Source of the DNA: Flavivirga eckloniae
GTDB lineage: Bacteria > Bacteroidota > Bacteroidia > Flavobacteriales > Flavobacteriaceae
Reading direction: 5' to 3'
Length of the DNA stretch: 64,000 bases
Assembly: GCF_002886045.1 (NCBI RefSeq)
Contig: NZ_CP025791.1
Span: 806,001-870,000, forward strand
Under the pieces are notes generated by a model. That model saw nothing but the letters and a program-made list of their open reading frames with translations. It ran no database searches and was not told the origin of the DNA. Made by a program: the position numbers and the translations under genes. Each line of letters begins with the position of its first letter. Within the stretch, counting starts at the first letter, position 1. This document shows, in pieces, positions 1 to 18,347 of the stretch.

Positions 1-174
1 CCGTTAGGGTTAGAATTTACATTAAAGACTTCAGCAACTCCTGGTTCGGGAACGATTACCATTACATTACGTCATGAGCCTAATAAAAGTGCTAGCGGCG
101 TTAGCGATGGTGATATAGCCAATGCTGGCGGAGAAACAGATGTACAAGCTATCTTCCCTATTATTGTTAAGTAG
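1..174 (+). CDS. C-terminal end of a flavobacterial lipoprotein-type protein (partial)
   Basis: An open frame runs from the first base to a TAG at 172-174 and gives 57 residues. The text near the end (LRHEPNKSASG, then a GD.A.AGGETD stretch) matches my memory of a small secreted Flavobacteriia family that databases call 'type 1 periplasmic binding fold superfamily protein'. Those proteins are about 190-residue lipoproteins of unknown function ending in just this way. The start and the lipobox lie outside the window, so localisation is inferred. A strong terminator follows 20 bases after the stop, so this is the end of a transcription unit. Confidence 0.6.
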   Translation, partial: PLGLEFTLKTSATPGSGTITITLRHEPNKSASGVSDGDIANAGGETDVQAIFPIIVK

Positions 175-193: not shown

Positions 194-240
194 TAATAAT
201 AAACGCCACGGTTTTAATAAAATCGTGGCGTTTATTATTA
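194..240. terminator. Long perfect hairpin terminator
   Basis: The 17-base arms at 194-210 and 224-240 are exact inverted complements with the core AACGCCACG/CGTGGCGTT. The pairing continues inward through a TTTT/AAAA tract to a 3-base loop. A/T tracts flank both sides, so it could stop transcription in either direction. It separates the lipoprotein tail from the histidine-kinase cluster. Confidence 0.85.
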
Positions 241-436: not shown

Positions 437-2473
437 GTGAACAAATATTGTTTATTTATAACATGTCTACTAATTACTTTTAGTATAAATGCACAAAACT
501 ATAGTTTTGAAAATGCACTAGATAGCATCCAAAGGTTACGAAAGCTATGTAAAAACGAAGCAATTGATATAGACAGCATGCTTCATTATGCAAAAGAAGC
601 AAGTAGATTATCTTATAAAATTGATATAGATTCTATTTCTATTAAGTATAACGAATCCCTATCTGAACTATACTGGGATATAAAAATGTATAATGAGTAT
701 AGGGATATCAACAAGAAGAATCTGTCAGTATCTCTAAAACTTAACGATTCCTCTACTATCGGTAAAGCTAGTATAAATTTAGGGGAGTATTATAGAAAAA
801 AAACACCTTATTCAGATAGTTCTTATCATCACTATCATACATCCGTAAAAATTTACCAAATACTTGATAATAAATACGATCTAGCCAGAGCATTGTATGG
901 TATTTCCGCTATTCAATGTGGAGAGAAAGAATATATTATGAGTGAAAAAACATCTATTGAAGCGTTGACTTTATTGAAAGAACTAGAAGAAACAAATGAT
1001 GTAAATCGAATTAAGTCTTTCATTTATAACAATCTAGGAATAGTTTATAACATGCTTAATATGTTTTCTGAATCTATAAAGTATCATAAAAAAGGAATAG
1101 ACTTAAAGAAAAAGTTAAAGGGAAATTATAAAGCAAGTATTTATAACTCATTAAATAACTTAGCAACTGTATATAGCCGATCAGGTCAATACTCTTTAGC
1201 CATTAGTTCTTTTAATAAAATACTAAAAGATGAAAGTCTACTTAAAGAACACCCTGAGATTTATGCCATGGCTCTTGACAATTATGCTCATACTCTATAC
1301 CTATCTAAAAACCATAAGCAACTTCCAGACTTATACTTAAAATCTTTAAAAATTGCTAACAGCGCTAATGCTGAATACAAATCAATAATCATATATCAAC
1401 ATTTAGCAGAATATTATTACGATAACCACAGAAAAGATTCTGCCCGATATTATGCCTATAAAGCAAAAAATATTTCTCAAAAGTACTACAATGATGATTT
1501 ATTAAAGTCCTTATTAATTCTATCTAAAATTGAAGATGACAGTATCGCTGTAAAACATTATGATGCATATATTAAACTCAACGACAGTATTCAAAAGAAT
1601 GAAAGAACAATACGAAACAAGTTCGCAAGAATTCAATACGAAACAGACACCTATATTGACGAAACAAAACGCCTGACCTCCCAGAACATTTTAATTACTA
1701 TTATTGGCCTGATAATCATTTTGGTTTTTGCTCTAATACTAATTATAAGGATCCAAATTACCAAGAATAGAGTATTACGATTTGAAGGTGAGCAACAAAA
1801 GGCCAACGAGGAAATCTACACGCTAATGCTCAGGCAGCAAGCCAAGATCGAGGAAGGTCGGCTTCTGGAACGCCATCATATCTCAGAAGAGCTCCATGAT
1901 GGTATTTTAAACAAGCTTTTGGGCTCCAGATTGGGACTGGAGTTTTTAGTTATAGATGAAAAAAACAAAGAAAAGAATAAAGAAAAATTCAACATTTACA
2001 TTGAGGAAATTAGAACTATTGAAAAAGAAATAAGAGATCTGTCCCATGAACTGAAAAACACCAAACTAGATGCCGAGAAAGACTTTATTACGATTCTGAA
2101 AAACTATGTCGATTATCAAAGTAACCTTCATACATTTCAATATAAATTTAACCATGCCGCAAATATTTTATGGGAAAGCATCAATGATCATGTAAAAGTC
2201 AATCTATACAGAATTATTCAGGAAGCCATTCAAAATATTGTTAAACATGCCAAAGCAACAACCATAACCATAAATTTCTCTCTAGACCGTAATGAAATAC
2301 AACTGGATATTATAGATGATGGCACTGGGTTTAATTCCAATAAAGAAAGTAAAGGTATTGGATTGTTGAATATAAAATCTAGAGTATCAAAACTCAAAGG
2401 AAAACTTAAGATTAGCTCCGAAACCAAAAAAGGTACGTTATTAATAATTAGACTTCCTGTTAATCAAAAATAA
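437..2473 (+). CDS. TPR-containing sensor histidine kinase, copy 1 of 3
   Basis: This 678-residue protein starts at GTG 437 with a signal peptide ending in NAQ. Roughly 400 residues of helical TPR-like repeats form the presumed periplasmic sensor. One membrane helix lies near residues 420-442 and is followed by a cytoplasmic coiled coil. The kinase is of the HisKA_3/HPK7 (NarX-like) type: the phospho-acceptor is His487 in EELHDGIL, the N-box reads RIIQEAIQNIVKHA and the glycine boxes read DDGTGF and GIGLLNIKSR. Such kinases normally signal to LuxR/NarL-type response regulators, but none is encoded nearby. The next paralogue starts 2 bases after the stop. It shares 266 identical bases with copy 3 and a nearly identical ATPase end with copy 2. 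The signal sensed is unknown. Confidence 0.9.
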   Translation: MNKYCLFITCLLITFSINAQNYSFENALDSIQRLRKLCKNEAIDIDSMLHYAKEASRLSYKIDIDSISIKYNESLSELYWDIKMYNEYRDINKKNLSVSLKLNDSSTIGKASINLGEYYRKKTPYSDSSYHHYHTSVKIYQILDNKYDLARALYGISAIQCGEKEYIMSEKTSIEALTLLKELEETNDVNRIKSFIYNNLGIVYNMLNMFSESIKYHKKGIDLKKKLKGNYKASIYNSLNNLATVYSRSGQYSLAISSFNKILKDESLLKEHPEIYAMALDNYAHTLYLSKNHKQLPDLYLKSLKIANSANAEYKSIIIYQHLAEYYYDNHRKDSARYYAYKAKNISQKYYNDDLLKSLLILSKIEDDSIAVKHYDAYIKLNDSIQKNERTIRNKFARIQYETDTYIDETKRLTSQNILITIIGLIIILVFALILIIRIQITKNRVLRFEGEQQKANEEIYTLMLRQQAKIEEGRLLERHHISEELHDGILNKLLGSRLGLEFLVIDEKNKEKNKEKFNIYIEEIRTIEKEIRDLSHELKNTKLDAEKDFITILKNYVDYQSNLHTFQYKFNHAANILWESINDHVKVNLYRIIQEAIQNIVKHAKATTITINFSLDRNEIQLDIIDDGTGFNSNKESKGIGLLNIKSRVSKLKGKLKISSETKKGTLLIIRLPVNQK

Positions 2474-2475
2474 AA

Positions 2476-4539
2476 TTGAGCAAATACCACACCTACATAT
2501 TATGCCTTTTTGTCTTTATCAATTTACAGGCTCAAAACAATAGTTTTGATAATACACTAGATAGCATCCAAAGATTAAGAAAACTGACTAAAAATGATAA
2601 TATAAAATTAGATACTAGACTTAGGTACGCGAAGCAAGCAAGAGATTTGTCTTATGAGACTAAAATAGATTCGACTATTCTCCTATCAAATGAAAGAATA
2701 GTCCATGTTTACTTATTAAAAAACGAATACGAACTTGCAATAAAACTTGGGCAAGAAAATTTAAAATTAGCGCAAAAAGTAAACGACTCGTTAGCTTATG
2801 CTTTTGGTTGTTGTTATCTTGGTTATGGATATATTTTATCTGGAATATACAAGGATAGTTCATATTTTTATTATAATAAGGCATTAAAAATTTCTAAAAA
2901 ACTAAATCATACCGATTTAACTATATCCACATTACTAAACCTTGCCAATATACAAGATGACCATCGGGATTATCTAAGCAGCGAAATCAATTTGATTGAA
3001 GCTGCATCTTTTTTACAAACACTTCCGAAAGATCAATTTGCCTTCGATAAATTATCTAACGTATACAACCAAATCGGTCTAACTTTAAGCCATCAAAAAT
3101 TATATAAAAAAGCAATTGATTATTTTAACAAAGCCTTAGAAATTAATAATAAACTACCCAATGAATATAATTACGAAGACAATAGCAATATAAACAAATA
3201 TGAAAACTATTTATACAGTAAGATCAACTTAGCCGAAGTATATAAGAAAAAAAAAGATTACAAAAATGCCTTATCTATATATAATGAATTACTTGAAAAC
3301 AAAGACTTAATAAAAAAAGACCTTCTTTCATATGTTGCCATAATTAACAACAAAGCATATGTATTATTTCTTGCTAAAAGAAACAAGACAAAACTCATTA
3401 AATCCCTATTTAATAAAGCTTACAAAATTAGTAATAGCTTGAATGCTTTATATGAAATTGCCTCCGGTGGAAATGACATGGCCGAATTTTACTATGCCAT
3501 CAACAAAAAAGATTCCGCTCATATTCTTTCTAAAAGATCATATACCGTTGGCAAACAGATCAAAAACTATCACGAACTTTCTAGGGCTTTATTAATGCTT
3601 TCCAAAATTGAAAAAGGAGAAGCAGGCAAAAAATACTTATACGAACATATAAAACTTAACGATAGTCTGATCAACGTAGAACGCACATCGAGAAACAAAT
3701 TCGCCAGAATTCAATACGAAACAGACACCTATATTGAAGAAACCAAACGCCTGACCTCCCAGAACATTTTAATTACTATTATTGGCCTGATAATCATTTT
3801 GGTCTTTGCACTAATACTAATCATAAGGGTTCAAATTACCAAGAACAAAGTATTGCGATTTGAAGGTGAGCAACAAAAGGCCAATGAGGAAATCTACACG
3901 CTAATGCTCAGGCAGCAAGCCAAGATTGAGGAAGGGCGGCTTATGGAACGACACCATATCTCAGAAGAGCTCCATGATGGTATTTTAAACAAGCTTTTGG
4001 GCTCCAGGTTGGGATTGGAGTTTTTAGTCATAGATCAAAAAAACAAAGGAAAGTTCAACGTTTACATTGATGAAATTAGAACTATTGAAAAAGAAATAAG
4101 AGACCTGTCCCATGAACTGAAAAACACAAAACTAGATGCCGAAAAAGACTTTATTACGATTCTGAAAAACTATGTCGATTATCAAAGTAACCTTCATGTA
4201 TTTCAATATAACTTTAACCATACCCCAAATATTGCATGGGAAAACATCAACGATCATGTAAAAGTCAATCTATACAGAATTATTCAGGAAGCCATTCAAA
4301 ATATTGTTAAACATGCCAAAGCAACAACCATAACCATAAATTTCTCTCTAAACCATGGTGAATTACAACTGGATATTATAGATGATGGCACTGGGTTTAA
4401 TTCCAATAAACAAAGTAAAGGTATTGGATTGTTGAATATAAAATCTAGAGTATCAAAACTCAAAGGAAAACTCAAGATTAGCTCCGAAACCAAAAAAGGT
4501 ACGTCATTAATAATTAAACTTCCCGTTAATCAAAAATGA
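2476..4539 (+). CDS. TPR-containing sensor histidine kinase, copy 2 of 3
   Basis: This 687-residue paralogue starts at TTG 2476, two bases after the stop of copy 1, so translation is probably coupled. The order is signal peptide (cleavage near LQAQ), TPR sensor, one membrane helix near residue 435-455, HisKA_3 domain with His500 in EELHDGIL, then a HATPase_c domain. It differs from copies 1 and 3 by a short deletion just after the H-box, where a lysine- and glutamate-rich stretch is shortened to QKNKGK. Its signal-peptide region is nearly identical to copy 3 at the DNA level, while its last 75 codons resemble copy 1. The sensor halves differ clearly, which suggests different ligands or partners feeding a common kinase output. 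Confidence 0.9.
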   Translation: MSKYHTYILCLFVFINLQAQNNSFDNTLDSIQRLRKLTKNDNIKLDTRLRYAKQARDLSYETKIDSTILLSNERIVHVYLLKNEYELAIKLGQENLKLAQKVNDSLAYAFGCCYLGYGYILSGIYKDSSYFYYNKALKISKKLNHTDLTISTLLNLANIQDDHRDYLSSEINLIEAASFLQTLPKDQFAFDKLSNVYNQIGLTLSHQKLYKKAIDYFNKALEINNKLPNEYNYEDNSNINKYENYLYSKINLAEVYKKKKDYKNALSIYNELLENKDLIKKDLLSYVAIINNKAYVLFLAKRNKTKLIKSLFNKAYKISNSLNALYEIASGGNDMAEFYYAINKKDSAHILSKRSYTVGKQIKNYHELSRALLMLSKIEKGEAGKKYLYEHIKLNDSLINVERTSRNKFARIQYETDTYIEETKRLTSQNILITIIGLIIILVFALILIIRVQITKNKVLRFEGEQQKANEEIYTLMLRQQAKIEEGRLMERHHISEELHDGILNKLLGSRLGLEFLVIDQKNKGKFNVYIDEIRTIEKEIRDLSHELKNTKLDAEKDFITILKNYVDYQSNLHVFQYNFNHTPNIAWENINDHVKVNLYRIIQEAIQNIVKHAKATTITINFSLNHGELQLDIIDDGTGFNSNKQSKGIGLLNIKSRVSKLKGKLKISSETKKGTSLIIKLPVNQK

Positions 4540-6629
4540 AACTGAACAAATATCACACCTACATATTATGCCTTTTTGTCTTTATCAATTTACAAGCTCA
4601 AAACAATAGTTTTGATAGAGCCTTAGATAGCATCCATAGATTACGAAAACTATGTAAAAACGAATCTATTAATTTAAATAGCAGGCTTAAATACGCAAAA
4701 GAAGCAAGTCGATTATCTTATAAAACAAAGGTAGATTCTACTATTTTATTATCCAATAGAGCACTTGTAGGCATTTACATGATTATGGATAATATAGAAA
4801 TGATTCGAGCTATCAGCCATAAAAACTTAAAACTAGCAAGAAAGCTTAACGACTCTACAATAATGGCTCACACCTATCGAAACCTAGCATGGAGCTACAT
4901 CGGTCCCGAGTTAAATATTGATAGTTGCTACATATATAGCAATACGGCTTTGAAGCTTTATAGAAAACTCAAAGATTATGAATACCAAAGCCTATCATTA
5001 AGCTATATATCTCACTTACAAAAAAATGAACAAGATTTTGTTAACAGCAATGCCAACCTTATAAAAGCTATCAATTTATTAAAATTACTTCCAGAAGATG
5101 ATGGAATTCTGGATGGGTTAATTAGCTATTATCACCAAATTGGCCTTAACTCTAAAGCCTCCAAGCTATACGATGAAGCCATTGAATACTTTAATAAGGC
5201 TCTAGAAATCAATAACAAACTATCCGACAACTACGATTACGATTATAAAGGTTATAACGGTGTAAACAAATACATGAATTACTTATATACTAAACTCAAT
5301 TTAGCAGAGGTATATAGACTAAAAAAGGATTATAAAAAGGCATTGTCAATTCACGACGAATTACTAAAAGACAAAGACTTGTCCAAAAAAGATCCCGGAA
5401 CATATGTTACTTTAATTAATAATAAAGCTTACACCTTATTTACATCTAAAAGTAAAGAAACAAAGCACATTAATTCGCTTTTTAGAAGAGCGTATAAAAT
5501 TAGCGATAGCCTAAATGATTTATATAAAATAGTCGTTTCGGGCAACGACTTGGCTGAATTTTTATATGCCATAAATAAAAAGGATTCCGCACATATACTA
5601 TCTAAAAAGTCATATACTCTTGGTAAACAAATTAGGAACCATCATGAGGTGTCCAGAGCTTTAATGTTGCTCTCCAAAATTGAAAAAGGAGAAAACAGTA
5701 AAAAGCACCTATACGAACACATAAAACTTAACGATAGTCTACTCGATGTTGAACGCACATCAAGAAACAAATTCGCCAGAATTCAATACGAAACCGATAC
5801 CTATATTGACGAAACAAAACGCTTGACCTCCCAAAACATTTTAATTATTATTATTGGCCTGATAATCATTTTGGTCTTTGCTCTAATACTAATTATAAGG
5901 ATCCAAATTACCAAGAATAGAGTATTACGATTTGAAGGTGAGCAACAAAAGGCCAACGAGGAAATCTACACGCTAATGCTCAGGCAGCAAGCCAAGATCG
6001 AGGAAGGTCGGCTTCTGGAACGCCATCATATCTCAGAAGAGCTCCATGATGGTATTTTAAACAAGCTTTTGGGCTCCAGATTGGGACTGGAGTTTTTAGT
6101 TATAGATGAAAAAAACAAAGAAAAGAATAAAGAAAAATTCAATATTTACATTGAGGAAATTAGAACTATTGAAAAAGAAATAAGAGACCTGTCCCATGAA
6201 CTGAAAAACACAAAACTAGATGCTGAAAAAGACTTTATTACGATTATGAAAAACTATGTCGATTATCAAAGTAACCTTCATGCATTTCAATATAACTTAA
6301 GCCATAATCCTAATATTTTATGGGAAAATATAGATGACTATGTAAAAGTCAATCTATACAGGATTATTCAGGAAGCCATTCAAAATATTGTTAAACATGC
6401 TAAAGCAACCACTATAACCATTAATTTCTTATTAAACTCAAATAAGCTATATCTAGACATTATAGATAATGGTATTGGCTTTAATATTAATAAAAAAAAC
6501 AATGGTATTGGTTTGTTGAATATAAAATCCCGGGCATCAAAAATTAAAGGAGAACTTAAAATTAACTCAAAGAGTAAAGAAGGCACAACCTTAACAGTTA
6601 AGCTTCCTTTTTATCAAACCTACTTGTAA
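4536..6629 (+). CDS. TPR-containing sensor histidine kinase, copy 3 of 3
   Basis: This 697-residue paralogue starts at ATG 4536, which overlaps the TGA of copy 2 (ATGA), so the pair is translationally coupled. The domains are signal peptide, TPR repeats, one membrane helix, HisKA_3 with His504 in EELHDGIL, and HATPase_c with N-box RIIQEAIQNIVKHA. Bases 5877-6142 are identical to 1727-1992 of copy 1. Beyond about 6400 the ATPase end diverges from both others (DNGIGF replaces DDGTGF, and the tail ends in PFYQTYL). It is the last gene of the three-gene operon, and a minus-strand gene follows. Confidence 0.9.
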   Translation: MKLNKYHTYILCLFVFINLQAQNNSFDRALDSIHRLRKLCKNESINLNSRLKYAKEASRLSYKTKVDSTILLSNRALVGIYMIMDNIEMIRAISHKNLKLARKLNDSTIMAHTYRNLAWSYIGPELNIDSCYIYSNTALKLYRKLKDYEYQSLSLSYISHLQKNEQDFVNSNANLIKAINLLKLLPEDDGILDGLISYYHQIGLNSKASKLYDEAIEYFNKALEINNKLSDNYDYDYKGYNGVNKYMNYLYTKLNLAEVYRLKKDYKKALSIHDELLKDKDLSKKDPGTYVTLINNKAYTLFTSKSKETKHINSLFRRAYKISDSLNDLYKIVVSGNDLAEFLYAINKKDSAHILSKKSYTLGKQIRNHHEVSRALMLLSKIEKGENSKKHLYEHIKLNDSLLDVERTSRNKFARIQYETDTYIDETKRLTSQNILIIIIGLIIILVFALILIIRIQITKNRVLRFEGEQQKANEEIYTLMLRQQAKIEEGRLLERHHISEELHDGILNKLLGSRLGLEFLVIDEKNKEKNKEKFNIYIEEIRTIEKEIRDLSHELKNTKLDAEKDFITIMKNYVDYQSNLHAFQYNLSHNPNILWENIDDYVKVNLYRIIQEAIQNIVKHAKATTITINFLLNSNKLYLDIIDNGIGFNINKKNNGIGLLNIKSRASKIKGELKINSKSKEGTTLTVKLPFYQTYL

Positions 6630-15217: not shown

Positions 15218-16225
15218 ATGCAAAATTCCTTAGTTAGTATACTCATTCCTTTTAAAAATACCGAAGCGTACTTAGAAGATTGTTTGGTATCTATTTTAAA
15301 TCAGACTTATACAAATTGGGAGTTGCTTATAGTTGACGATTCGTCCACCGATTCCAGTTTTGATATCGTTGAAGGTTTTGCAAAAAAGGATAGTAGAATA
15401 ACGCTTTTAAAAAATAAAGGTACTGGTATAATTGATGCCTTACGATTAGCTTTTAAACATAGTAAAGGCACTCTTATTACAAGAATGGATAGCGACGATA
15501 TTATGCGTACTAATAAATTAGAGGTATTGGTAAACAATTTATCGGCACACGGAAAACAGCACGTTGCCATTGGTTTGGTAAATTACTTTTCTAAGGAAGG
15601 CATAAAAGAAGGTTTTAAAAACTACGAACTATGGCTTAACGATCTAACAAAAACAGGAACTAATTATTCCGAAATTTATAAGGAATGTGTTATCCCCTCA
15701 CCTTCATGGATGGTTCACAGAAGTGATTTAATGGCATGCAATGCTTTTAACCCAAACAGATATCCCGAAGATTACGATTTAGCCTTTAGGTTTTATAAGC
15801 ACCAATATACATGTATTCCCTGTGATGCTGTTATTCATGATTGGAGGGATTATAGCTCGCGAACCTCAAGAACACACGTGCATTATGCAGAGAATCATTT
15901 TATAGATATTAAACTGCGTTACTTTTTGGAATTGGATTACAATCCTAATAAAACCCTCGTTATTTGGGGTGCCGGTAACAAAGGAAAAGTAGTCGCTAAA
16001 ACGCTTATTAAAAAAGCCGTCCCTTTTGAATGGATTTGCGATAACCCCAATAAAATAGGAAGAGACATCTATGGTAAAGTATTAAAACCTTTTAGTGCTT
16101 TGGAAACTATTGAGAATCCTCAAAGTATTATTACTGTTGCCAATAAAGGAGCTCAAATAGTGATTAAAAAATATATGGATGCTCTTAACATGAAAAATAT
16201 TTTCGATTACGTTTTCTTCTGTTAA
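15218..16225 (+). CDS. Glycosyltransferase family 2 fused to a Rossmann-like domain
   Basis: Residues 1-230 form a GT-A glycosyltransferase of family 2: SILIPFKNTEAYLEDCL, LLIVDDSSTD, and the metal-binding DSDD in ITRMDSDDIMR. Residues about 245-335 form a separate domain beginning LVIWGAGNKGKVV, a GxGxxG-like nucleotide-binding loop, ending with a conserved FDYVFF. The transferase probably adds a sugar to a glycan or lipid at the inner face of the membrane, though no transmembrane helix is visible. Acceptor and sugar cannot be read from the sequence. It is monocistronic. Confidence 0.85.
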   Translation: MQNSLVSILIPFKNTEAYLEDCLVSILNQTYTNWELLIVDDSSTDSSFDIVEGFAKKDSRITLLKNKGTGIIDALRLAFKHSKGTLITRMDSDDIMRTNKLEVLVNNLSAHGKQHVAIGLVNYFSKEGIKEGFKNYELWLNDLTKTGTNYSEIYKECVIPSPSWMVHRSDLMACNAFNPNRYPEDYDLAFRFYKHQYTCIPCDAVIHDWRDYSSRTSRTHVHYAENHFIDIKLRYFLELDYNPNKTLVIWGAGNKGKVVAKTLIKKAVPFEWICDNPNKIGRDIYGKVLKPFSALETIENPQSIITVANKGAQIVIKKYMDALNMKNIFDYVFFC

Positions 16226-16265
16226 TTTCTACAATACTTATACGTATATTCATTATCATTTTCTA

Positions 16266-16283
16266 TATTTCGTTAACGAAATA
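16266..16283. promoter_or_regulatory. 18-bp perfect palindrome, possible operator
   Basis: TATTTCGTTAACGAAATA is perfectly self-complementary. It lies in the 193-base gap between the glycosyltransferase and the BatA-like gene, about 110 bases before the candidate promoter. There is no T tract, so a binding site is more likely than a terminator. Confidence 0.4.
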
Positions 16284-16394
16284 CTTTCATGAATTAATGT
16301 AAGCTCGTTTTAATCCAAGTAAATTATTGAACAAAGGAAACTAAATAGAATTTTTTTCGTTTTATCCAATAACTCGAAAACGAAAAAAAATATG

Positions 16395-16402
16395 TAGTTT
16401 TG
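16395..16402 (+). promoter_or_regulatory. Candidate -7 box of the BatA-like operon
   Basis: TAGTTTTG matches TAnnTTTG and ends 16 bases before the start codon at 16419. No TTTG is visible at the expected -33 position. Confidence 0.4.
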
Positions 16403-16418
16403 ACAAATCTAAAAATGA

Positions 16419-18347
16419 ATGCAGTTTAAACACCCAGAGCTTCTTTACGCTTTATTTTTATTACTTATCCCTATAATTGTTCACTTATTTCAATTACGCA
16501 AATTTCAAAGAGTTCCTTTTACCAATGTGGCATTTTTAAAGGAAGCGATACTGCAAACCCGTAAAAGTTCACAAATAAAAAAATGGTTGGTTCTTTGTAC
16601 AAGGCTTTTAATTCTTGCTGCCATTGTATTTGCATTTGCCCAACCTTTTTCCTCTAAGTCCAATGCCTTTAAGACCAAAAAAGAAACAGTTATTTATTTA
16701 GATAATTCATTTAGTTTACAAGCTAAAGGACCACAGGGTGAACTTTTAAAACGTGCTGTTCAAGATATTATAAGCAACGTTCCCGAAAATGAGAATATCT
16801 CGTTACTAACTAATGATAATGTTTATAAAAACACCACTATAAAAGCTATTAAAAACGATTTATTGCAATTAGGGTACTCATCAGATAAGCTGACGTCTGA
16901 AGCTGCTTTATTAAAAAGTAACACCATAATTAATAAGCGAAAAAACTCTTTAAAAAATCTTGTTTTTATTTCCGATTTTCAACAAGACGCATCTAATTTC
17001 ACCCCAAAAACAGACTCACTTACGAATCTTCATTTGGTTAAATTACAGCCAATAAGTACCAATAACGCAACTATTGATAGTGTTTACATTTCTAAAAGAA
17101 CTGCAAGTACTATAGAGTTAAAAGCACTTATAAAAAATAGCGGGAGTCCTATTGAAAACCTCCCCATTTCGTTATTTAGCAATGATAATTTGATTGCAAA
17201 AACTTCGGTTGCGGTTACAGATCGTGCAGAAACCACATTTTCGCTTCCCGCAAATGAAGCTATTAACGGAAAAATTATAATTGATGATGTTAATCTGCAA
17301 TTCGATAATAGCCTATACTTTAATATTGGTAACGAATCTAAAGCTAATGTGCTCTCTATAAATGGAACAACAAATGATGATTCCTTTTTAAAACGCATTT
17401 ATACCAATAATGAATTTAACTACCTCGCAACTTTAGAGAATCAGTTAAATTATAATATTATAGATCAACAGCACCTCATCGTTTTAAATGAACTGGATGC
17501 TATTCCCAATGCCTTAGTCGCTGCATTAAAACAGTTTACTAAACAAGGCGGAGCGTTAATCGTGATACCTTCAAAACGTATTAACGAACAATCCTATAAT
17601 CAATTACTAAGTCATTATCGCTCCAATTTTAATAATTTATCGTTAACTGAAAAACGTATTACTACCATTAATTATGCTCACCCCTTGTATAATAATGGCG
17701 TATTTGAAAAACAAGTAAGTAATTTTCAATACCCAAAAGTATCGAGTTTTTATAATGTTTCGTCAAATAGTTCAACGGCATTAAAATTTGAAGATGGCAA
17801 GCCGTTTTTATATCAAAACAGTAATGCTTTTATATTTACAGCAGCTCTAAATAGTAAAAACTCAAGTTTTATAAGTTCACCGTTAATTGTACCTACACTT
17901 TATAATATAGGAAAGTATAGTCTAAAAACGCCAAAGCTGTATTATACTATAGGATACGAAAACACTTTTGATGTAGATACGCAATTGCAACAAGACGACA
18001 TATTATCGTTGGTTAACAATGAGGTTAACATAATACCAAGGCAACAATATTTTAACAATAAAGTAGTAATAAGTACTTCTAAAAATCCATCCGTTGCAAA
18101 TATTTATACCATAAAGAATAAAAACGAAAGCATTAAAAACATCAGTTATAATTATAATCGAGATGAAAGTAATCTAACTTATAGAACGCTTTCCCCTTCA
18201 GATAATATAACGGTTAACGATTCAATTACAGAAATTTTCAACACCATAAAAAGTGATACAAAAGTTAACGCCTTATGGAAATGGTTTGTTATTTTTGCAC
18301 TAGCGTTACTGATTATCGAAATGGTCATCTTAAAATATTTTAAATGA
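16419..18347 (+). CDS. BatA-domain membrane protein
   Basis: A 642-residue protein beginning with the Bacteroidota BatA N-terminal double-membrane domain: FKHPELLYALFLLLIPIIVHLFQLRKF (helix 1), a conserved VPFTNVAFL linker, and helix 2 near residues 57-77. A large extracytoplasmic region resembling a von Willebrand/GATase-like fold follows, with a last helix near 620-638. The role is unknown; relatives accompany the Bat aerotolerance genes. The next gene, a dihydroorotase homologue, overlaps it by 4 bases, so the two are one operon. Confidence 0.85.
   Translation: MQFKHPELLYALFLLLIPIIVHLFQLRKFQRVPFTNVAFLKEAILQTRKSSQIKKWLVLCTRLLILAAIVFAFAQPFSSKSNAFKTKKETVIYLDNSFSLQAKGPQGELLKRAVQDIISNVPENENISLLTNDNVYKNTTIKAIKNDLLQLGYSSDKLTSEAALLKSNTIINKRKNSLKNLVFISDFQQDASNFTPKTDSLTNLHLVKLQPISTNNATIDSVYISKRTASTIELKALIKNSGSPIENLPISLFSNDNLIAKTSVAVTDRAETTFSLPANEAINGKIIIDDVNLQFDNSLYFNIGNESKANVLSINGTTNDDSFLKRIYTNNEFNYLATLENQLNYNIIDQQHLIVLNELDAIPNALVAALKQFTKQGGALIVIPSKRINEQSYNQLLSHYRSNFNNLSLTEKRITTINYAHPLYNNGVFEKQVSNFQYPKVSSFYNVSSNSSTALKFEDGKPFLYQNSNAFIFTAALNSKNSSFISSPLIVPTLYNIGKYSLKTPKLYYTIGYENTFDVDTQLQQDDILSLVNNEVNIIPRQQYFNNKVVISTSKNPSVANIYTIKNKNESIKNISYNYNRDESNLTYRTLSPSDNITVNDSITEIFNTIKSDTKVNALWKWFVIFALALLIIEMVILKYFK

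Follow-up and report, generated by a model that had tools for sequence, protein, structure and literature searches.

How can a bacterium come to hold several different sensors on what looks like a single signaling output? This question is raised by three tandem sensor kinase genes, termed here K1, K2, and K3, at positions 437 to 6629 of a 64,000-nt stretch of the Flavivirga eckloniae chromosome (NZ_CP025791.1, positions 806,001 to 870,000; hereafter the window). The genome, G000 in our comparison set, is a single contig of 5.67 Mb. An original prediction, made from the window sequence, described the kinases as a mosaic in which different sensors are kept on one homogenized output module by local gene conversion. 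The mosaic holds up, and selection on the protein alone does not account for it. Each of the three sensors belongs to an old lineage of its own, with its closest relatives in other species or at other loci, and the transmembrane (TM) and kinase halves have been homogenized piecewise by recombination inside this genome. Sensors are swapped as units within the genus, single-copy loci included, with breakpoints close to the signal peptide and immediately ahead of the TM helix.

All three genes lie on the forward strand and share one architecture. K1 (437..2473; 678 aa, GTG start) consists of a signal peptide, a tetratricopeptide repeat (TPR) sensor, one TM helix, and the HisKA_3 and HATPase_c domains, as judged from Pfam and a structure model. 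K2 (2476..4539; 687 aa, TTG start) and K3 (4536..6629; 697 aa) are built like K1, and the K2 stop overlaps the K3 start in the sequence ATGA. The HATPase_c scores of 48.4, 50.6, and 49 bits all exceed the Pfam cut-off of 26.4. For HisKA_3 (cut-off 24 bits), K1 and K3 score above the threshold (27.1 and 26.5) and K2 below it (21.2), though its sequence is nearly the same. The HDG of the H-box is intact in the alignment of all three copies, which are predicted to autophosphorylate and to pass phosphate to a NarL-type regulator. By domain content the proteins are ordinary HisKA_3 kinases of the DesK/NarX type with periplasmic TPR sensors. The model of K1, which was built from 52 sequences (three from the window and 49 relatives) and has a mean predicted local distance difference test score (pLDDT) of 83, shows TPR-like helices at residues 45–383 followed by one long helix (385–506) that runs into the kinase. 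Similarity among all the copies sets in near residue 392 of K1, where this helix begins. Among solved structures, the closest folds are those of LGN-type TPR domains and of DesK/VraS.

Pairwise identity along the three genes, measured in 51-base windows, is far from uniform, and the three shared blocks on which the original prediction was built are all present at the positions given for them. K1 and K3 are exactly identical over 266 bases (1727..1992 and 5877..6142, offset 4150). The match between the ATPase ends (2186 to 4252) and that between the signal peptides (2488 to 4554) share an offset of 2066 on both sides of a gene boundary, and therefore constitute one contiguous tract that covers the end of K1, the gap, and the start of K2 (2182..2571, with its K2/K3 copy at 4248..4637). 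At this offset, 25 to 30 of 30 bases are identical in each 30-base window from 1990 to 2589, across both gene boundaries, and the next window falls to 20; upstream, the high identity reaches back to about 1990, in a stretch over which the three copies resemble one another. A single mismatch, at 2529, separates K2 2488–2551 from K3 4554–4617. K1 and K2 are 90%–100% identical in six windows from 2171 to the end of K1, where K3 is 67%–92% identical to either. Thus, of the three nearest-neighbor pairs originally proposed, the K1/K3 tract stands, and the K1/K2 and K2/K3 pairings prove to be one tract. A weaker K1/K3 block follows the signal peptide (533..620; partner about 4638–4725, offset 4105), with 82% identity against 61%–73%, and a synonymous substitution estimate (dS) of 0.45 against 1.8 or saturation, in the other pairs. 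At least two exchanges are required: the junction tract could have been made in one step by exchange between array junctions, through either conversion or unequal crossover, and the K1/K3 tracts at offsets 4150 and 4105 need at least one more.

Synonymous sites carry the same signal. The proportion of synonymous differences (pS) among the sensors (635..1609, 2674..3687, and 4740..5759 in K1, K2, and K3) is 0.69–0.78, which is saturated. In the TM and kinase modules (1610..2470, 3688..4536, and 5760..6626), it is 0.15 for K1/K2, 0.25 for K1/K3, and 0.34 for K2/K3, and near zero in single tracts. The same modules differ from those of other species by a pS of 0.63–0.75. The values for sensors and modules bear out the earlier description of different sensors on a homogenized output. 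Within the modules, the K1/K3 dS is 0.03 at codons 442–536 and 0.94 at the ATPase end, and the K1/K2 values for these two blocks are 0.38 and 0.05; over the last 66 codons, K3 stands 0.94–1.25 from K1 and K2. Synonymous divergence that ranges from about zero to more than one implies several events at different times. By permutation of polymorphic sites (5000 shuffles, hence a floor of P = 0.0002), the longest shared run over the whole alignment reaches the floor for each of the three pairs. At synonymous sites of the kinase module, so do the K1/K3 run (1732–1987) and the K1/K2 run (2182–2383); the K2/K3 run is not significant (P = 0.07). When every site of the module is included, P is 0.0002 for K1/K3 and 0.22 for K2/K3. 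Significant runs of shared polymorphism in otherwise diverged copies, as expected under gene conversion, are accordingly found for K1/K3 and, at synonymous sites, for K1/K2.

The syntenic site was compared in 12 genomes of the genus, one per species. It holds no kinase in one genome (G007), one in eight, two in G001 and G010, and three in G000. In the kinase-module tree, K1, K2, and K3 form one clade (support 100/100), as do the two G010 copies, G010a and G010b (98/95). The sensor tree, from which two sensorless genes (G002t and G005t, both present in the kinase tree) were omitted, is arranged differently. There, K1 belongs to a 100/100 set with G009, u710, and the paralogs P2 and P3 of its own genome; K3 pairs with G008 (100/99) and is joined by G010a (98/97); K2 pairs with G004 (93/87, not starred); and G010b pairs with G003 (96/95). 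The K1 sensor is 65% identical in amino acids to that of G009. Approximately unbiased (AU) tests on the sensors reject the groupings K1+K2+K3 (P = 1.1e-5), K2+K3 (0.005), and G010a+G010b (3e-12), and tests on the kinases reject K1+G009 (3e-68), K2+G004 (3e-6), K3+G008 (0.002), and G010b+G003 (0.009). The exchanged groupings are rejected both ways, with nine P values all below 0.01. No single consistent topology was found, and recombination is favored over a simple duplication tree both by these tests and by the synonymous sites. Array order also differs, in that the K2-type copy precedes the K3-type copy in G000 and the K3-type comes first in G010. The flanking-gene tree was poorly resolved as a species tree, with the TonB tree there unsettled, and was not used for dating events.

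G002 and G005 each have one gene at the site, which lacks most or all of the TPR and retains the kinase (372 and 318 aa). These sensorless kinases (L059 7003–8121 and L060 7826–8782, respectively) have a signal peptide fused to the TM and kinase part. The join in G005 falls at a DSIQ motif that is found at both sensor edges, which fits deletion between short repeats.

Sensors have also been replaced at single-copy loci. Kinase P2 of G000 lies elsewhere in the genome, beside its response regulator RR1. Its module groups with the P2 modules of G001 and G010 (99/94) and its sensor does not (AU P = 3e-53); this gene thus joins a species-typical kinase module to a sensor of another type. At the P3 locus, which is single-copy and linked to a regulator, sensor identity and kinase identity are uncorrelated (r = 0.01; 66 pairs, 12 genomes). 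Between G001 and G006, the P3 kinases are 97% identical (pS 0.22) and the sensors 56% (pS 0.68); the G006 sensor shares 88% identity with its G002 counterpart (AU P = 1e-32). The DNA of G001 and G006 is 90%–99% identical through kinase and regulator, 49%–72% in the sensor, and mostly 82%–96% upstream. Replacement of the sensor between close relatives that keep the kinase and regulator, as in a pherotype system, is therefore seen for this pair. Exchange within the array is upheld, as originally proposed, but its restriction to the locus is not, because the sensors are common to other species and are replaced at single-copy loci. The triplet is one outcome of a broader process of sensor cassette exchange.

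Two independent arrays in other genera show the same contrast between sensors and kinases. In G069, of another flavobacterial genus, five tandem TPR sensor kinases (L169 5560–15751) have sensors that are 50%–74% identical and kinases that are 85%–93% identical, with kinase pS below sensor pS in all 10 pairs. Starts 2–5 of this array, together with the 100 preceding bases, are alike, as are ends 1–4; start 1 differs, and so does the sequence following end 5. This is the junction geometry of the junction-spanning tract in the triplet. A sensorless kinase follows the L169 array on the opposite strand (15801–16814). In a two-copy array (G093), pS is 0.08 in the first 40 codons, 0.65 in the sensor, and 0.15 in the kinase.

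Several simpler histories must be weighed against these data. One holds that K1–K3 are ancient tandem paralogs under purifying selection, with the kinase half constrained, the sensors free to diverge, and no exchange. Sensors do outpace kinases elsewhere, with mean identities of 62% and 87% among P3 orthologs. However, protein constraint does not restrain synonymous change, and a module pS of 0.15–0.34 that approaches zero in tracts, beside 0.69–0.78 in the sensors and 0.63–0.75 between species, refutes this explanation, short of strong codon or RNA constraint confined to these tracts. The tree conflict between the two gene halves also argues against selection alone, and we regard this history as scarcely credible. 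Another possibility is that unequal crossover alone turned an A-B pair into A-(B/A)-B, so that K2 starts like K3 and ends like K1. The junction matches do form one tract at a constant offset, and the array edges in G069 are unique as this model predicts. Yet K2 and K3 should then share a whole sensor, and instead their sensors, at 56% identity (pS 0.77), do not group as sisters; nor does the model account for the K1/K3 tract at offset 4150. Unequal crossover is thus refuted as the sole cause, a role that we judge very unlikely, although it is possible as one event among several.

A third history begins with the recent tandem duplication of one gene and continues with imports of foreign sensors, without homogenization of old copies. 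It agrees with the presence of related sensors in other species, with sensor replacement at single-copy loci, and with the recent movement of the upstream receptor block between species (see below). Import by itself predicts a single age along the kinase half, but dS there runs from 0.03 for K1/K3 at codons 442–536 to 0.94–1.25 in the last 66 codons, and we find this account unlikely. We consider it likely instead that sensor halves are exchanged as cassettes by homologous recombination, and that the arrays represent several sensors on one homogenized output.

A number of observations weigh against this last interpretation. The K1/K2 run reaches only P = 0.07 when all sites of the kinase module are used, and several of the AU groupings were picked after identities or trees had been viewed. 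In G069, runs have P < 0.05 in only two of 10 pairs, uncorrected. The two copies in G001, an array at the same locus in a sister species, have a sensor pS (0.25) close to the kinase pS (0.28) and no significant run; this pair is an ordinary duplicate that doubles as a negative control. The comparison with relatives that had been suggested for this locus thus yields the conflict between sensor and kinase trees, but no mosaic in the array of G001. With one genome per species, old trans-species sensor lineages followed by loss would look like imports, and ongoing exchange inside a species is not observed. The proposal of a shared regulator is also affected: its nearest candidate, RR1, which lies beside sister kinases, is absent from G005 and G006, both of which keep a kinase at the locus, and was rejected as a general shared partner.

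If sensor cassettes are indeed exchanged by homologous recombination, the conserved signal-peptide and TM-kinase sequences could serve as homology arms. Within arrays, recombination through these arms would keep kinases and junctions uniform, and in exchange between chromosomes, DNA arriving from other species would use the same arms to replace sensors. Each array would then offer several sensors on one output, probably by way of a shared response regulator encoded elsewhere, and the TPR grooves might bind different periplasmic proteins or peptides. These results suggest that such flavobacteria rewire sensing by swapping sensor cassettes. A more ambitious and decidedly tentative proposal is that, in Flavivirga and certain other flavobacteria, the TPR half acts as a transferable cassette that sets specificity and is swapped within arrays and between loci and species by homologous recombination through conserved arms; multi-sensor arrays would feed one regulator, and the whole would be a pherotype-like Gram-negative recognition system in which the TPR grooves would recognize exchanged peptides or surface proteins.

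The output of K1–K3 is probably common to all three because they differ little in their dimerization and histidine phosphotransfer (DHp) and ATPase parts. No response regulator gene adjoins them in the neighborhood examined, and they do not form an orthodox two-component pair. RR1 orthologs (at least 72% identical) occur in nine of the 12 genomes and are absent from G005, G006, and G007. Two further RR1-like orphan regulators in G000 were examined, and no tie to the kinases was seen. Orphan RR1-like regulators in four Flavivirga genomes (L189 6577–7251, L190 7795–8472, L191 7002–7676, and L192 7256–7930) are possible partners of the orphan kinases; judged from the starts of open reading frames (ORFs), these four adjoin genes resembling type IV pilus or secretion genes.

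Relatives were drawn from the best 80 of 438 loci, and regulators were counted in the best 79. A regulator lies within 200 bases at 65 of these 79 loci, none of them tandem. Two of the other 14 are tandem (L066 and L077), and the chance that both arrays would land among the 14 is about 0.03, by arithmetic from the listed counts. Among the same 14, L134 has a regulator as the next listed ORF, further off, and L105 stops at a contig edge. The arrays of G000, G001, and G069 likewise have no adjacent regulator, though they were sampled nonindependently. The array survey covered 397 genomes, with two candidates scored in each, and may have missed arrays elsewhere. Kinases without a neighbor gene may be the ones that form arrays, which we offer as a lead and not as a result.

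A TonB-dependent receptor gene and a small lipoprotein gene lie 5' of the triplet, and folE lies 3' on the opposite strand. A 22-bp hairpin on the forward strand (194..240; z -10 by folding), a likely terminator, separates the lipoprotein gene from K1, so the kinases look like their own transcription unit and are probably cotranscribed. A terminator scan found no more sites than expected by chance and missed this hairpin, which was seen by folding. Terminator-like hairpins also occur at 1921–1945 and 6071–6095, in coding sequence inside the K1/K3 tract; such sites are no commoner than in shuffled sequences.

The upstream block, comprising a small His-rich gene, the TonB receptor, and the lipoprotein gene (window 1–173 and L044 12813–16174), has a pS of only 0.12–0.25 to G001, G003, G006, and G010, compared with 0.40–0.81 for other neighborhood genes in the same species pairs. 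The low divergence fades before K1. Judged from this sequence comparison, the block is a recent cross-species exchange, a pattern that supports the entry of DNA from other species into this region. The receptor block varies between species, and G008 has a divergent receptor type yet a K3-type sensor. The receptor matches models of heme, copper, and ZnuD-type receptors weakly. A plasmid search gave no match.

These findings bear on the question of how signaling networks add inputs yet keep output specificity. A study of myxobacteria (PMC4603909) terms the direct exchange of sensor halves among natural kinases rare; such exchange is visible here at three loci in one genus. Closely related pairs date single exchange events. 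The natural chimeras supply working sensor-kinase junctions that could be used in engineering, and comparison of species that are much alike apart from the sensor offers a way to ask what TPR sensors recognize.

Among known systems, the kinase half of K1–K3 resembles kinases of the DesK/NarX/LiaS-VraS type (HPK7, HisKA_3), with matches to DesK and VraS by sequence and fold; K1–K3 differ in their TPR sensors, paralogous array, and nonadjacent regulator. Concerted evolution of tandem paralogs homogenizes copies tract by tract and leaves array edges unique. Both features are found here, but homogenization is confined to the output half and the junctions, and the sensors stay apart. In myxobacterial two-component systems, where paralogs expand and related kinases gain new input domains, domain shuffling is termed rare and probably proceeds by loss followed by gain (PMC4603909). 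In Flavivirga, by contrast, one homologous sensor has repeatedly taken the place of another within a single genus, and the breakpoints fall at the sensor edges. The nearest likeness in pattern is to ComP of the Bacillus comQXPA pherotype system (PMC4008528), which also joins HisKA_3 and HATPase_c domains in a conserved cytoplasmic half to an N-terminal sensor half that varies strongly between close relatives. The ComP sensor is described there as TM helices, encoded beside a pheromone gene and the regulator gene comA, whereas the K1–K3 sensor is a periplasmic TPR domain, the triplet has no adjacent regulator, and several sensors stand in one array. No ligand gene turned up at the triplet, where no systematic search for one was made. 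In the literature searched on kinases with gene conversion, concerted evolution, shuffling, mosaics, and TPRs, seen mostly as listings, there was no report of such sensor swapping. A variable sensor on a conserved kinase is thus already known from ComP (PMC4008528); multi-sensor arrays, tract-wise homogenized output, and sensor replacement at three loci of one Gram-negative genus are, within the literature searched, apparently newly described.

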